From Verrucomicrobiales bacterium (GTDB taxonomy: Bacteria; Verrucomicrobiota; Verrucomicrobiia; Verrucomicrobiales; V1-33), in contig JAQGPJ010000055.1 in NCBI GenBank assembly GCA_028293125.1, positions 62,001 to 126,000 on the forward strand: DNA of 64,000 bases. The letters are read 5' to 3'. Made by a program: the position numbers and the translations under genes. Of the stretch, positions 25,679-31,397 are shown piece after piece. The notes beneath the pieces were generated by a model. It was not told the origin of the DNA. It made no database searches and saw nothing but the letters and a program-made list of their open reading frames with translations. The first letter of the stretch is position 1. Every line of letters begins with the position of its first letter.

Positions 25679-27219
25679 GCGGCTGTATCCGCGGTTTTCC
25701 CGGCCGGCCGGGAGGCTGCGGCACTATCACGGTCAAGAGTGTCGGCGGCGATCCAGCCGGACATGAGTACCATGGGCATGCCGGGACCGGGATGCGCCGC
25801 GCCGCCGGCAAGGTAGAGCCCGCGCAGATCGGCGCTGCGGTTGCCGGGTTTGAACGCACCGAGGAATTTGCCGTGGCTCGCGAGACCGTAAATGGCCCCG
25901 TTCAGCACGTGGTAGCGCTCGTGAATATCCTGCGGCGTGAGAGTGCTCTCATAGACGATGCGCTCTTCGATGTCCGGCATCCGGCCGGTGCGCTTCAGTT
26001 TTTCCAGGATCACGCGCCGGTATTCCGGCAGCATTTTTTTCCAATCATGATGCGGGCGCAGATACGGCGTGTGCACAAGCACATAAAGCGCTTCACCTCC
26101 GGCCGGCGCAGTGCCGGGCTCGGTGCAGGTGGTGGCGGCCAGATAACAGGTGGGATCGGGTGCGGGCTCCCCCTTTTTGTAGATCCACTCGAACTCCTCG
26201 TGCGGGTCGCGGCTGAAAACGAAGCCGTGATGCGCCAGATGGTCATAACGTTTGGACAGCCCGAGGTACAGCACCACACCCGAGCAGGCGGGCTCATAGC
26301 GGCGGCGGCGCTCGAAGCGGCCACCCGCCTCATCACTGACCAGTTCCCGGTGGGTGCGCACGGAATCACAGTTCGACACCACCGCGCTGAGGGCCACCTC
26401 CTCACCGGCATCAGTGCGCACTCCGGTGACTGTCCCTGCGTGCGACAGGATTTTTTCGATTTTCACCCCGGTGCGGAATTCGACGCCCAGTCCGCGCGCC
26501 AGCTTTTCGAGCGCGAGCGGCACCGCGCGCGTGCCGCCGATGGGATACCACACGCCCTCATCGGTCTGCATGTGGGCAATGCCGCACAGCACCGCCGGCG
26601 AGCCTTGGGGTGATGAGCCGACATACTGCGTGAAGTGGTCCATCATCTGCGCCACCCGCGCATCGGGAGTGAAGGCGCGCACTGTGCCAGCGACCGAGCG
26701 CCCCATGCGCATCGCCAGCACATCGCCCAGCATCCCCGGATCAAACGACGAGCGCCAGTCGAACATGTCACGCAACCCGCCGATCGGCTTGTAAAAAAAG
26801 TGCCTCTGGGAAATGCGGTCGAGGCGCGCGCTGTAGTCGATAAATTCTTGGTAGCGCGCACCGGATGCGGTGCCGGGCGCGAACTCATCCAGCGTGCGGG
26901 CCATCGCAGCAGTGTCCTGCGCGAGATCAAGGACTGAGCCGTCCTCAAAAAAGCAGCGCCACTGGGGGTCCAGCCGCACCAACTGCAAATAATCCTCCAT
27001 GCGTGCGCCGGCCTCATTGAAAATGCGGCGGAGCACCGAGGGAATGGTCACGATGGTCGGCCCCATGTCAAAGCGGAAGCCACCGCCGGTGAGCTGTGCG
27101 GCCTTGCCGCCGAGCCAGTCGTTGCGCTCAAAGAGAATGACCCGGTGGCCGCGCGCGGCCAGCACGCAGGCTGCGGAAAGGCCCCCCAGACCGCCGCCGA
27201 TAATGCCGATCGGTTTCAT
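25675..27219 (-). CDS. CrtN/CrtP-family carotenoid desaturase/oxygenase
   Basis: IGIIGGGLGGLSAACVLAARGHRVILFERNDWLGGKAAQLTGGGFRFDMGPTIVTIPSVLRRIF; LRGLYLAGGAAHPGPGMPMVLMSGWIAADTL. Confidence 0.9.
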   Translation of the reverse strand: MKPIGIIGGGLGGLSAACVLAARGHRVILFERNDWLGGKAAQLTGGGFRFDMGPTIVTIPSVLRRIFNEAGARMEDYLQLVRLDPQWRCFFEDGSVLDLAQDTAAMARTLDEFAPGTASGARYQEFIDYSARLDRISQRHFFYKPIGGLRDMFDWRSSFDPGMLGDVLAMRMGRSVAGTVRAFTPDARVAQMMDHFTQYVGSSPQGSPAVLCGIAHMQTDEGVWYPIGGTRAVPLALEKLARGLGVEFRTGVKIEKILSHAGTVTGVRTDAGEEVALSAVVSNCDSVRTHRELVSDEAGGRFERRRRYEPACSGVVLYLGLSKRYDHLAHHGFVFSRDPHEEFEWIYKKGEPAPDPTCYLAATTCTEPGTAPAGGEALYVLVHTPYLRPHHDWKKMLPEYRRVILEKLKRTGRMPDIEERIVYESTLTPQDIHERYHVLNGAIYGLASHGKFLGAFKPGNRSADLRGLYLAGGAAHPGPGMPMVLMSGWIAADTLDRDSAAASRPAGKTADTAA

Positions 27220-28532
27220 GATTTTGACTTTGTGGTTTTGATTTTGGTGAGGATCGCCCGGAAAAGACCGGGAAGCGCCCGGAGCCGGTTGCGGCCATGG
27301 GCGGCACGCAGCCAGGCGGAGAAAAACGCCGCGTCGTCCACGGACGGCTCATCGAAATGCGGGTGCATGCCTCCGCGGCGCACCGCGACGACGTGCGGAA
27401 AGGTCATTTCGAGCAGCCCCTCCGCACCCCGCGTGATGCCGAATCCGCTCGCCTTCACCCCGCCGAACGGCATCCGTGGATCGGCGGTGGGAACGATCAG
27501 ATCGTTGATGGTGACAAATCCGGTCCTCAGACGGGACGCAAGCCGGTGCGCACTGGCAGGGTCGCCGGAGAAAATGGCGGCCCCAAGCGCGAAATCGGCG
27601 GCATTGACCAGCGCGGCGGCGGCATCAGCATCCCGGACCGTTTGAACCGGCGGCACGGGCGCTCCATCTGCTCCGGCAAGGCGTCCCGCCAACTCCCCCG
27701 CCATGGATCCGACCGCAAGGATGCGGCGTGGCGCGATGCATGTTCCCCCGGCATTCAGCCGCAGGCCAAAACGCAGGGCGCGCACCGCGAGCTCCAAATC
27801 GGCGTCCTCCAGGACGATAACGGTGTCCATGCCCGAGAGCTCCATCACCGACGGTGTATTGGTGTCCGCAAGCCGGGCGAGGACGGATCGGCCATTTTCC
27901 GAGGAGCCGGTGAAGATGACCTTGTCGGCTCCATAGGCGACCGCCTCGCGCGATTCAGCCCCGGTGTCACCGAGAATTTCGAGTAATGGGAAAGGAAGAC
28001 CGGCTGCAAAAGCAAGGCGGGCCACGGCAAGCGCAACGTGGCGCGTGCCCGGAGCAGGTTTAAGGCGGACCGCGTTTCCCGCGACGAGAGCGTGCAGCGT
28101 GTGCACGGCGGGGAGAAAAAGCGGGTAATTGCCGGGACCAATGACAAGCACCGTGCCAAAGGGCCGGCGCTGCACTTCAAAGTCCATACCATGCAGCCAA
28201 AGCGGGCGGCCTTTCCTGCCATGAAACCGTGGTGCCAGCACCTTCGGGGCGTTGCGCTCAAGCCATTGGCAGGCATCCGCCAGCGGCAGCACCTCGGAGA
28301 CAAGCTTCTCCGCCAATGGCCGGTCCCGCACCGATGCCGCCTCCGCCGCCAGGGATTCGGCGTTCTCGGCGATCAGATGGCGGAGTCTGCGGATAAACGC
28401 CAGCCGGTCGCGCACCGGCGTTTCCTCCCAGCGCAGCTGAGCTGTGCGGACGCCGTCCTGCACGGGGCCAGGATTCCGTCCGCCAGGCGGCGGCTCCTGT
28501 CGTGACCGTGCGGTATTGGCAGGCGCATTCAT
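27216..28532 (-). CDS. Aldehyde dehydrogenase (apo-carotenal/diapolycopenal dehydrogenase candidate)
   Basis: GTVLVIGPGNYPLFLPAVHTLHALVAGNAVRLKPAPGT; VIFTGSSENGRSVLARLA; PRMPFGGVKASGFGITRGAEGLLEMTFPHVVAVRR. Confidence 0.82.
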   Translation of the reverse strand: MNAPANTARSRQEPPPGGRNPGPVQDGVRTAQLRWEETPVRDRLAFIRRLRHLIAENAESLAAEAASVRDRPLAEKLVSEVLPLADACQWLERNAPKVLAPRFHGRKGRPLWLHGMDFEVQRRPFGTVLVIGPGNYPLFLPAVHTLHALVAGNAVRLKPAPGTRHVALAVARLAFAAGLPFPLLEILGDTGAESREAVAYGADKVIFTGSSENGRSVLARLADTNTPSVMELSGMDTVIVLEDADLELAVRALRFGLRLNAGGTCIAPRRILAVGSMAGELAGRLAGADGAPVPPVQTVRDADAAAALVNAADFALGAAIFSGDPASAHRLASRLRTGFVTINDLIVPTADPRMPFGGVKASGFGITRGAEGLLEMTFPHVVAVRRGGMHPHFDEPSVDDAAFFSAWLRAAHGRNRLRALPGLFRAILTKIKTTKSKS

Positions 28533-30103
28533 GGGAGGGAGCGTGCGGCTTCCAGAATTGATTCGGGAGCGTTGAGCATCGGGGCGGACACGATGCCTGA
28601 TCCACTGGATGGAAAGTGAACCGGCTTCACTCCCAGGTCGGCGAGCAGCAGCCGGGTGCTGATGCGCGCGCTTTCAAAAATGACCGGCAGACCACTGCCC
28701 GGATGGGTGCCGCCGCCCACCAGGTAAATACCGTCCACATCCTCAAAGCGGTTCCGGGGCCTCAGGTGCAGCATCTGATCGAGGCTGTGGGCCAAGTTGA
28801 AGGTGGCCCCGAGGTGGATGTCATACTGGGTGTCCCAATCAGCGGGGGTGACGATGCGTTCGAAGCGGATGCGGCGCTCAATATCGGTGAAGCCGGCCTT
28901 CTCGATCTGTTTCAGCATTTTGGCGCGGAAGCGCTCCCGCTCCCGGGGCCAATCCACATTGGGGTGCTGATGCGTGACCGGTGCGAGAACGTAAAGGGTG
29001 CTGCACCCGGCAGGAGCCATCGATGGATCGGTGACGCAGGCATTCTGCACATAGAACGAGGGATCGTCCGAAAGCACATGCCGCCGTTCGATCTCATCGA
29101 GATTGCGCGCGTAGTCAGCAGCGATGTGGATGCTGTGATGCGGCAGGTCGAAGGCGCCCTCCACGCCCAAGTACATCATGAAGGTGGAGCAGGAGAATTT
29201 CTTACTGGCAATTTTGCGGTCACTCCAGCGGCGGCGCAGACCGTCAGGCACGAGGCGGTGCATCGACCGCGCGAAGTCGGCATTCATCACAATGGCGCGC
29301 GCTTTCTCCACTCCCGCCGCCGTCCGCACTCCGACCGCGCGCCGGCCTTCGAAAAGCACTTCCTCCACTGGCGAATCGAGGACGATTTCAACCCCCAGCC
29401 GCTGCGCCGTCCGCGCCATCGCCGCCGTGACCGCCGCGCATCCTCCCAGCGGATGGAAGACGCCGTATTCATATTCAAGAAAGGAAAGGATTGAAAAAAG
29501 ACTCGGACAGCGGAACGGCGACATGCCGAGATACTTTGATTGGAAGGAGAACGCCAGCCGGATGCGCGGATCCCGGAAAAAGCGCCCGAGATAGGTGTCC
29601 ATCGACTGATGGGGCCGGAGCATCGGCAGCATTTTCAGGAGGCGTGTCTGCGCAAGGTCCTGCCAGCCCAGAAATGGCAGCCCAAGGCACGGCTCCATGC
29701 AGGCAAGTTTCTGCCGGTTCTCCTTAAGAAACCGCCGGAAGCCTGGAGCATCCGCCGGCGCGATGGCCGCGATCTCCCGCTCCATGCGTTCTATATCCGG
29801 TGTGGCGTCAATCTTTCCGCCACTGCCGAAAAGGATGCGGTACTGCGGGTCGAGCCGCACCATGGGCACCTCTTCGGCAAGCGATGTCCCGGCGGCTTGA
29901 AAAATTTCATCCAGCACACGGGGATAGAGGAAAAACGTGGGTCCCAGATCAAACCTGAAGCCATCCGCCTCAATCGCCGAAGTGCGCCCGCCGACGGTCG
30001 GCAGCCGCTCGATGATTTTTACCTTCAGCCCTTGGGCGGCAAGCAGGATCGCGGAGGCAAGCCCGCCGGGGCCGGCACCGATGATGATGGCGTCGTGTTT
30101 CAC
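28529..30103 (-). CDS. crtN: CrtN-family carotenoid (dehydrosqualene/phytoene) desaturase
   Basis: AIIIGAGPGGLASAILLAAQGLKVKIIERLPTVGGRTSAIEADGFRFDLGPTFFLYPRVLDEIF; VDGIYLVGGGTHPGSGLPVIFESARISTRLLL. Confidence 0.85.
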   Translation of the reverse strand: MKHDAIIIGAGPGGLASAILLAAQGLKVKIIERLPTVGGRTSAIEADGFRFDLGPTFFLYPRVLDEIFQAAGTSLAEEVPMVRLDPQYRILFGSGGKIDATPDIERMEREIAAIAPADAPGFRRFLKENRQKLACMEPCLGLPFLGWQDLAQTRLLKMLPMLRPHQSMDTYLGRFFRDPRIRLAFSFQSKYLGMSPFRCPSLFSILSFLEYEYGVFHPLGGCAAVTAAMARTAQRLGVEIVLDSPVEEVLFEGRRAVGVRTAAGVEKARAIVMNADFARSMHRLVPDGLRRRWSDRKIASKKFSCSTFMMYLGVEGAFDLPHHSIHIAADYARNLDEIERRHVLSDDPSFYVQNACVTDPSMAPAGCSTLYVLAPVTHQHPNVDWPRERERFRAKMLKQIEKAGFTDIERRIRFERIVTPADWDTQYDIHLGATFNLAHSLDQMLHLRPRNRFEDVDGIYLVGGGTHPGSGLPVIFESARISTRLLLADLGVKPVHFPSSGSGIVSAPMLNAPESILEAARSLP

Positions 30104-30115
30104 AGGGCAGCAGGG

Positions 30116-30322
30116 TCAGAATTTTGTCTTTACTCCGCAGGCCCGGAGTGCGCACCAGCCACGCGCCGCCTCGAAGGCCACAAAGGCTGCCGAGACACCG
30201 AGCACAAAGGCGGCGGCACGGGAATGGGGCCATGCGCAGACAGCGCCTACAACCAGACCAAGAGCGCCGGCGGCGCGGATAAGGCGGCCTTTCGGGCCTA
30301 TATTCGGACTGAGAAAAGACAT
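30116..30322 (-). CDS. Small membrane protein, DUF2892/YgaP-like, first gene of the carotenoid operon
   Basis: NIGPKGRLIRAAGALGLVVGAVCAWPHSRAAAFVLGVSAAFVAFEAARGWCALRACGVKTKF; N-terminal NxG..R.IR and C-terminal GWC.L...G..T pattern. Confidence 0.65.
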   Translation of the reverse strand: MSFLSPNIGPKGRLIRAAGALGLVVGAVCAWPHSRAAAFVLGVSAAFVAFEAARGWCALRACGVKTKF

Positions 30323-30349
30323 GGCGCAGTGCTTGGAAAGCTGCGCCAG

Positions 30350-30371
30350 TGTCTAAGTCTTGTCTAAGTAT
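30350..30371. promoter_or_regulatory. Two contiguous 11-bp direct repeats TGTCTAAGTCT/TGTCTAAGTAT, candidate CarH operator for the crt operon
   Basis: Direct reading; lies between a minus-strand TTGACA (-35-like) and the DUF2892 start. Confidence 0.65.
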
Positions 30372-30424
30372 GTCAACCTAAACTTGGACAATATTTCGGT
30401 GACACGCCGATTTTGATTGGCTGC

Positions 30425-30446
30425 TGTCTAGTTTGTGTCTAGTTGT
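30425..30446. promoter_or_regulatory. Two contiguous 11-bp direct repeats TGTCTAGTTTG/TGTCTAGTTGT, candidate autoregulatory CarH operator
   Basis: Direct reading; immediately upstream of the likely GTG start at 30456. Confidence 0.65.
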
Positions 30447-30455
30447 GCCCGATCC

Positions 30456-31397
30456 GTGTCCACCTCCTACTCCATTCAAGCCGCCGCCGACCGCACCGGC
30501 CTCACGCCCCATGTGATCCGTGCGTGGGAACGGCGTTACAAAGCCATTGAGCCTGAGCGTTCCTTGGGGAGACACCGGCTGTATTCCGAAGACGAGATTC
30601 AGCGGCTGTCCATGCTGCGCCGTGCTGTCGAAGCCGGACACAGCATCGGGCGGATTGCACGTCTGAGCGCGGGTGAGCTGGGAGCGCTCATCGCGGATTG
30701 TCCATCGGCCGAGCCTTTCAGCGCGTCGGCATCCGCCACCGATTCCGCTGCGCCTTTCCGTGCCCGGGCAATGGCTGCGGTCGAACTTTTCGACACTGCG
30801 GCGCTTGAAACCGCGCTCCGGAACTCACTCCTCGAACTCAGCCACAACGGGCTTCTGCAGATGGTGGTGGCACCGCTCGCGGAGGAAATCGGGGAACGCT
30901 GGCGCAGCGGTCAAATCACGGCGGCCCACGAGCATTTTTTCACTTCGGGAGTGAAGGTGTTTCTGGGCCAGCTGACGCGGCAGTTCGCGTTGCCGGCCAC
31001 CGCGCCGCGGATTATCGTCAGCACGCCGGCGGGGCAGCTGCACGAGCTTGGGGCGGTCATGGCCGCCGCCGCCGCCGCCAACCTCGGCTGGCACCCGGTT
31101 TATCTCGGTGTCAGCCTGCCCGCGCATGAAATCGCAGGTGCCGCGCTCCGCAGTGATGCCGTCGCCGTCGCGCTCAGCATTGTTTATCCTGAGGATGATC
31201 CGGGGCTCGCTGGCGAACTGACCGAACTGGCCCGGTTGCTCCCTGCCAGCATCCGGATCATGGCGGGCGGCCGCGCCGCGCGCGGATACTTCGAAACGCT
31301 GGCCCGCATCGGCGCGCTGTACGCCGACAGCATCGGGGAATTCGGCACCCAGCTTGACTCACTGCGCCGCGGCTCCGCCAAACACGGCCTTGTCTGA
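30456..31397 (+). CDS. MerR-family HTH + cobalamin-binding domain regulator, CarH/LitR-like photoreceptor
   Basis: YSIQAAADRTGLTPHVIRAWERRYKAIEPERSLGRHRLYSEDEIQRLSMLRRAVEAGHSIGRIA; W-RSGQITAAH-EH (W-x9-EH) then TPAGQLHELGAVMAAAAAANLGWHPVYLG (B12-binding). Track start is GTG 30435; GTG 30456 preferred because the repeats cover the upstream one. Confidence 0.88.
   Translation: MSTSYSIQAAADRTGLTPHVIRAWERRYKAIEPERSLGRHRLYSEDEIQRLSMLRRAVEAGHSIGRIARLSAGELGALIADCPSAEPFSASASATDSAAPFRARAMAAVELFDTAALETALRNSLLELSHNGLLQMVVAPLAEEIGERWRSGQITAAHEHFFTSGVKVFLGQLTRQFALPATAPRIIVSTPAGQLHELGAVMAAAAAANLGWHPVYLGVSLPAHEIAGAALRSDAVAVALSIVYPEDDPGLAGELTELARLLPASIRIMAGGRAARGYFETLARIGALYADSIGEFGTQLDSLRRGSAKHGLV

Follow-up and report, generated by a model that had tools for sequence, protein, structure and literature searches.

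Among the known systems closest to the present locus, CarH of Thermus thermophilus (PDB 5C8D, 5C8E) combines a MerR-type with a cobalamin-binding domain, carries a Wx9EH motif and a lower-axial His, and acts on an operator of 11-bp direct TnnACA repeats, one of which holds the -35 element. The published CarH repeat is 11 bp long, stands in tandem and follows nAnnTnnACAn (PMC8156234), written as nnnnTnnACAn elsewhere (PMC9304148). A -35 embedded in a repeat is likewise found in the Myxococcus operators, while in the Sorangiineae, operators that combine a small number of full repeats with degenerate ones serve the two promoters of a divergent crtI-carH pair (PMC9304148). In addition, the available portion of PMC11796333 describes CtMerR (8JBS, 8JBT), whose photoreceptor domain resembles that of CarH and carries Arg at the position of Thermus His132; it binds AdoCbl and passes from tetramer to monomer in light; a DNA site of CtMerR was not found in that portion.

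The locus described here lies within a stretch of 64,000 nucleotides from a Verrucomicrobiales bacterium (the window, to which all coordinates refer unless a locus is named) and shares with Thermus CarH the two domains, Wx9EH, the lower-axial His and direct TnnACA repeats, one of which holds a putative -35. With the Sorangiineae it has in common the divergent crt and carH genes and operators of full and degenerate repeats that would serve two promoters, and with CtMerR the CarH-like photoreceptor domain with its Arg. In contrast to Thermus, the window CarH has Arg for His132 and a low overall identity, a second operator is present beside carH, and one of the steps between repeats measures 10 bp. 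The Sorangiineae loci (PMC9304148) differ from it in phylum and in the make-up of the crt cluster, and TAGACA is the prevailing core in the window. Both predicted operators, O-crt (30349-30380, three repeats) and O-car (30424-30445, two repeats), are accommodated in the gap of about 134-135 bp between the crt operon and carH, and their direct repeats share one orientation:

30349-30359, minus strand: direct repeat 3 of O-crt, GACTTAGACAC, with core TAGACA, full nAnnTnnACAn match
30360-30370, minus strand: direct repeat 2 of O-crt, TACTTAGACAA, with core TAGACA, full match, one 11-bp step from repeat 3
30370-30380, minus strand: crt operator, direct repeat 1, TAGGTTGACAT, holding the putative crt -35 TTGACA, full match
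30381-30391, plus strand: single TnnACA repeat facing the other way, AACTTGGACAA, its spacing to the -35 repeat constant
30424-30434, minus strand: carH operator, direct repeat 2, AAACTAGACAG, full nAnnTnnACAn match
30435-30445, minus strand: carH operator, direct repeat 1, CAACTAGACAC, full match, with about 10 bp between its end and the likely start codon of carH

An earlier, sequence-only reading of this DNA had reported two pairs of 11-bp repeats in the gap, which were recovered as exact matches to TGTCTA-N5-TGTCTA at 30350-30366 and 30425-30441 and were the only two sites returned by a scan of the 64-kb window with up to two mismatches. It had also regarded their core as unlike known ones. 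However, on the minus strand, along which the crt operon is read, TGTCTA becomes TAGACA, and in this sense all five window repeats fit nAnnTnnACAn at every specified position; TGTCTA as a new operator type was therefore rejected, being the known CarH consensus seen from the other strand. Thus, only half of that reading fell, whereas its other half, that these are CarH operators with dual control, was strengthened by the form of the repeats, their 11-bp spacing, the embedded -35 and the adjacent CarH gene as well as by relatives in which repeats persist on the crt side and on the carH side of the gap. On these grounds, the repeats are very probably best read as CarH operators. The minus-strand TTGACA that had been noted beside the crt-side pair is indeed present (TGTCAA, 30371-30376) and is itself the third member of the left array, 10 bp from its neighbour. 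The tandem steps in the window accordingly comprise two of exactly 11 bp and one of 10 bp (crt repeat 1 to repeat 2), the latter possibly due to the loss of a single base or to an error in the sequence. Apart from the -35-like TTGACA inside crt repeat 1, a consensus scan gave no convincing -10 for either the crt or the carH promoter.

The three closest relatives (loci L001, L002, and L003), whose CarH proteins are 68-69% identical to that of the window, show how far this layout is conserved. On the crt side, all of them keep TGTCAAC and, two registers off and at the place of crt repeat 3, TAGACA, with an in-register or degenerate copy in between; their counterpart of crt repeat 2 is degenerate yet in register. 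Repeats 1 and 3 are 21 bp apart in the window as compared to 22 bp (two 11-bp registers) in these relatives. A 20-bp frame, TGTCAAC-N6-TT(C/G)GACA (30371-30390 in the window), recurs with the same distance in all three. On the carH side, the position of carH repeat 2 is occupied by TGAACA in L001 and L002 and by a degenerate copy in L003, and a further TAGACA lies 33 bp away in each. Given this variation at the carH end (TGAACA, degenerate copies, an empty register) and an O-car with just two full repeats and no clear carH promoter, one could suppose that the crt-side array alone functions as an operator and that the carH-side pair is weak or auxiliary, or anchors cooperative binding or looping. 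We regard this as unlikely, as the TAGACA next to the carH start codon (carH repeat 1) is common to L001, L002, and L003, and both O-car repeats of the window match the consensus perfectly.

The regulator of the model that we favour, with control of both promoters by CarH, is encoded directly beside O-car:

30456-31397, plus strand: carH, with MerR_1, B12-binding_2 and B12-binding domains (Pfam), start GTG 30456 by alignment

In the alignment, the relatives' ATG starts fall on GTG 30456 and not on GTG 30435, giving a protein of 313 aa and fitting the earlier claim that the second pair lies just upstream of the regulator; with a start at GTG 30435, the pair would overlap the coding sequence. 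The protein matches Thermus CarH in the PDB (5c8d, E 4.4e-26) and has the N-terminal MerR-type DNA-binding domain, the C-terminal cobalamin-binding domain, the Wx9EH motif that caps the adenosyl group (WRSGQITAAHEH), and the lower-ligand His. The B12 motif D/ExHx2G/P-x41-SxT/V-x22-27-GG appears as QLHELG-x41-SIV-x27-GG, with His, spacing, and GG retained and with Gln for the first Asp/Glu, as in most relatives compared. As it scores 121 bits against the 400-bit cut-off of the NCBIfam CarH equivalog NF052513, the sequence places it in the same family as CarH and not among the curated equivalogs.

At the position of Thermus His132, the upper ligand of cobalt in the light state, the window CarH has Arg, and no relative with a recognised Wx9EH motif has His there. 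Since the H132A variant of Thermus CarH is reported to remain mostly a tetramer under light (PMC10442372), the regulator might bind the repeats without a Thermus-like release by light and respond chiefly to the supply of cobalamin or to redox state instead. The tetramer-to-monomer transition reported for CtMerR, which has the same residue, argues against this, and we consider it rather improbable. The example of CtMerR shows that His132 does not define the wider CarH group. Light release of the window CarH is thus likely, although its route may differ from that in Thermus.

The sequence-only reading had named phylogenetic footprinting as a check, and for this purpose 50 oriented carH loci were used, comparing 250 bp upstream of carH (12.7 kb in total) with the other 276 kb. 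The repeats proved to be conserved on the crt as well as the carH side in L001, L002, and L003, and they also recurred across this set: 25 TnnACA pairs at spacing 11 were counted upstream of carH (in 17 loci) versus 4 elsewhere. Other spacings from 6 to 23 gave 0-5 upstream pairs, except for spacing 22 (10 pairs), which is twice the period. Among 51 collected repeats (window included), TAGACA (27) and TTGACA (10) stood out as cores, and A was favoured at position 2. An exact spacing-11 pair was absent upstream in 33 of the 50 loci, many of them from one same-order family (L025-L028, L030, L032-L035, L037-L046) that showed no excess of other 11-bp repeats either; nor did other cores at spacing 11 exceed expectation upstream of carH genes without TnnACA pairs in general. 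In that family, the operators of the CarH homologues may be different or located elsewhere. Tandem repeats of the TAGACA type also occur about 1.1 kb upstream of crtI in L071 and L072, where the neighbouring MerR-type gene matches the window CarH over the DNA-binding domain only.

A second CarH-like gene of the genome (L047, 6914-7918; G000 C88) encodes a protein that is 42% identical to the window CarH and contains the same motifs, including Wx9EH. Because MerR-type recognition helices are similar, this paralogue or another MerR-type protein could be the main binder of the repeats in place of the adjacent CarH. However, TnnACA pairs at spacing 10 or 11 were not found near the paralogue, and across loci the repeats sit upstream of the adjoining carH, which makes such a binder a distinctly improbable candidate. 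The adjacent CarH accordingly stays the preferred one.

Finally, short repeats may arise by chance or from composition and lack function, but we give this practically no credence in view of the 50-locus count, which in practice refutes it, of a shuffling test in which the 134-bp intergenic stretch was randomised 20,000 times with its dinucleotides preserved (two TAGACA pairs with 11-bp spacing never arose, two TnnACA pairs arose in 2 shuffles), and of a search of the whole 6.48-Mb genome, in which TGTCTA-N5-TGTCTA with at most one mismatch occurs in the carH/crt gap only. The doubled fuller consensus TGTnnAnnTnn is found in three places genome-wide, two of which are the pairs of the gap. Genome scans with three and with two repeats for a wider regulon each returned one extra, chance-like match.

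The genes on the other side of the gap are all transcribed away from carH:

30116-30322, minus strand: first crt-side gene, 68-aa YgaP-like transmembrane protein, PF11127 (E 1.5e-6)
28529-30103, minus strand: CrtI-family carotenoid desaturase, TIGR02734, 533 bits (above cut-off)
27216-28532, minus strand: aldehyde dehydrogenase, PF00171, syntenic in L003 and L004
25675-27219, minus strand: second CrtI-family enzyme, TIGR02734, 412 bits, 86% identical in L003
24872-25678, minus strand: acyltransferase, PF01553, syntenic in L003
23760-24875, minus strand: family 2 glycosyltransferase, PF00535, syntenic in L003

The YgaP-like protein is 72-74% identical in L001 and L003, and the gene order is retained in L003 and, up to the end of the contig, in L004. 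Presumably, this gene set resembles a pathway of the staphyloxanthin type. Two genes of the squalene/phytoene synthase type (G000 C71:20116-20907 and C41:72446-73342; one is HpnD-like, below cut-off) may feed the pathway. With the cut-off chosen, a search of four same-genus genomes (68-89% complete) yielded no close match to crtI, while some genomes of other genera and families have one; the distribution of the crt-carH cluster seems patchy.

Taken together, we consider it highly likely that in the dark AdoCbl-bound CarH represses its own gene together with the divergently transcribed crt operon, and that light lifts this repression. The analysis itself shows the repeats, their fit to the consensus, their conservation and a sensor of the CarH type, from which we infer DNA binding, repression in the dark, release by light and autoregulation. 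In the dark, oligomers of AdoCbl-bound CarH would place their MerR-type domains on successive repeats along one face of the DNA; on O-crt they would stand in the way of RNA polymerase at the crt promoter, whose genes would stay off, and on O-car they would lower carH transcription. Upon illumination, the Co-C bond of AdoCbl would break and the CarH oligomer would fall apart and leave the DNA, so that the carotenoid genes and carH would be induced. Against this model we count the 10-bp step, the lack of a clear -10, and the mere two full repeats of O-car, and furthermore the Arg for His132, the 121 of 400 bits for NF052513, and the 33 of 50 loci without a pair.

The locus is therefore a new, well-supported example of the known CarH switch, ordinary in kind, and does not represent a new operator type. 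Tentatively, and as less likely than not, one may envisage that Verrucomicrobiota and Acidobacteriota have a CarH lineage without the His132 light ligand, which combines standard TAGACA-type repeats at both divergent promoters with a light release that does not depend on bis-His ligation and with a conserved inverted repeat, resulting in a mixed direct and inverted layout. A literature search found no report of CarH in Verrucomicrobiota or Acidobacteriota, and a query for CarH in Verrucomicrobia gave unrelated matches. The present locus would extend to these two phyla the regulation of carotenoid genes by CarH through operators of an unchanged grammar; the repeat rule provides a simple finder of CarH targets there, and the regulator-operator pair of the window offers a way to probe the missing His132.
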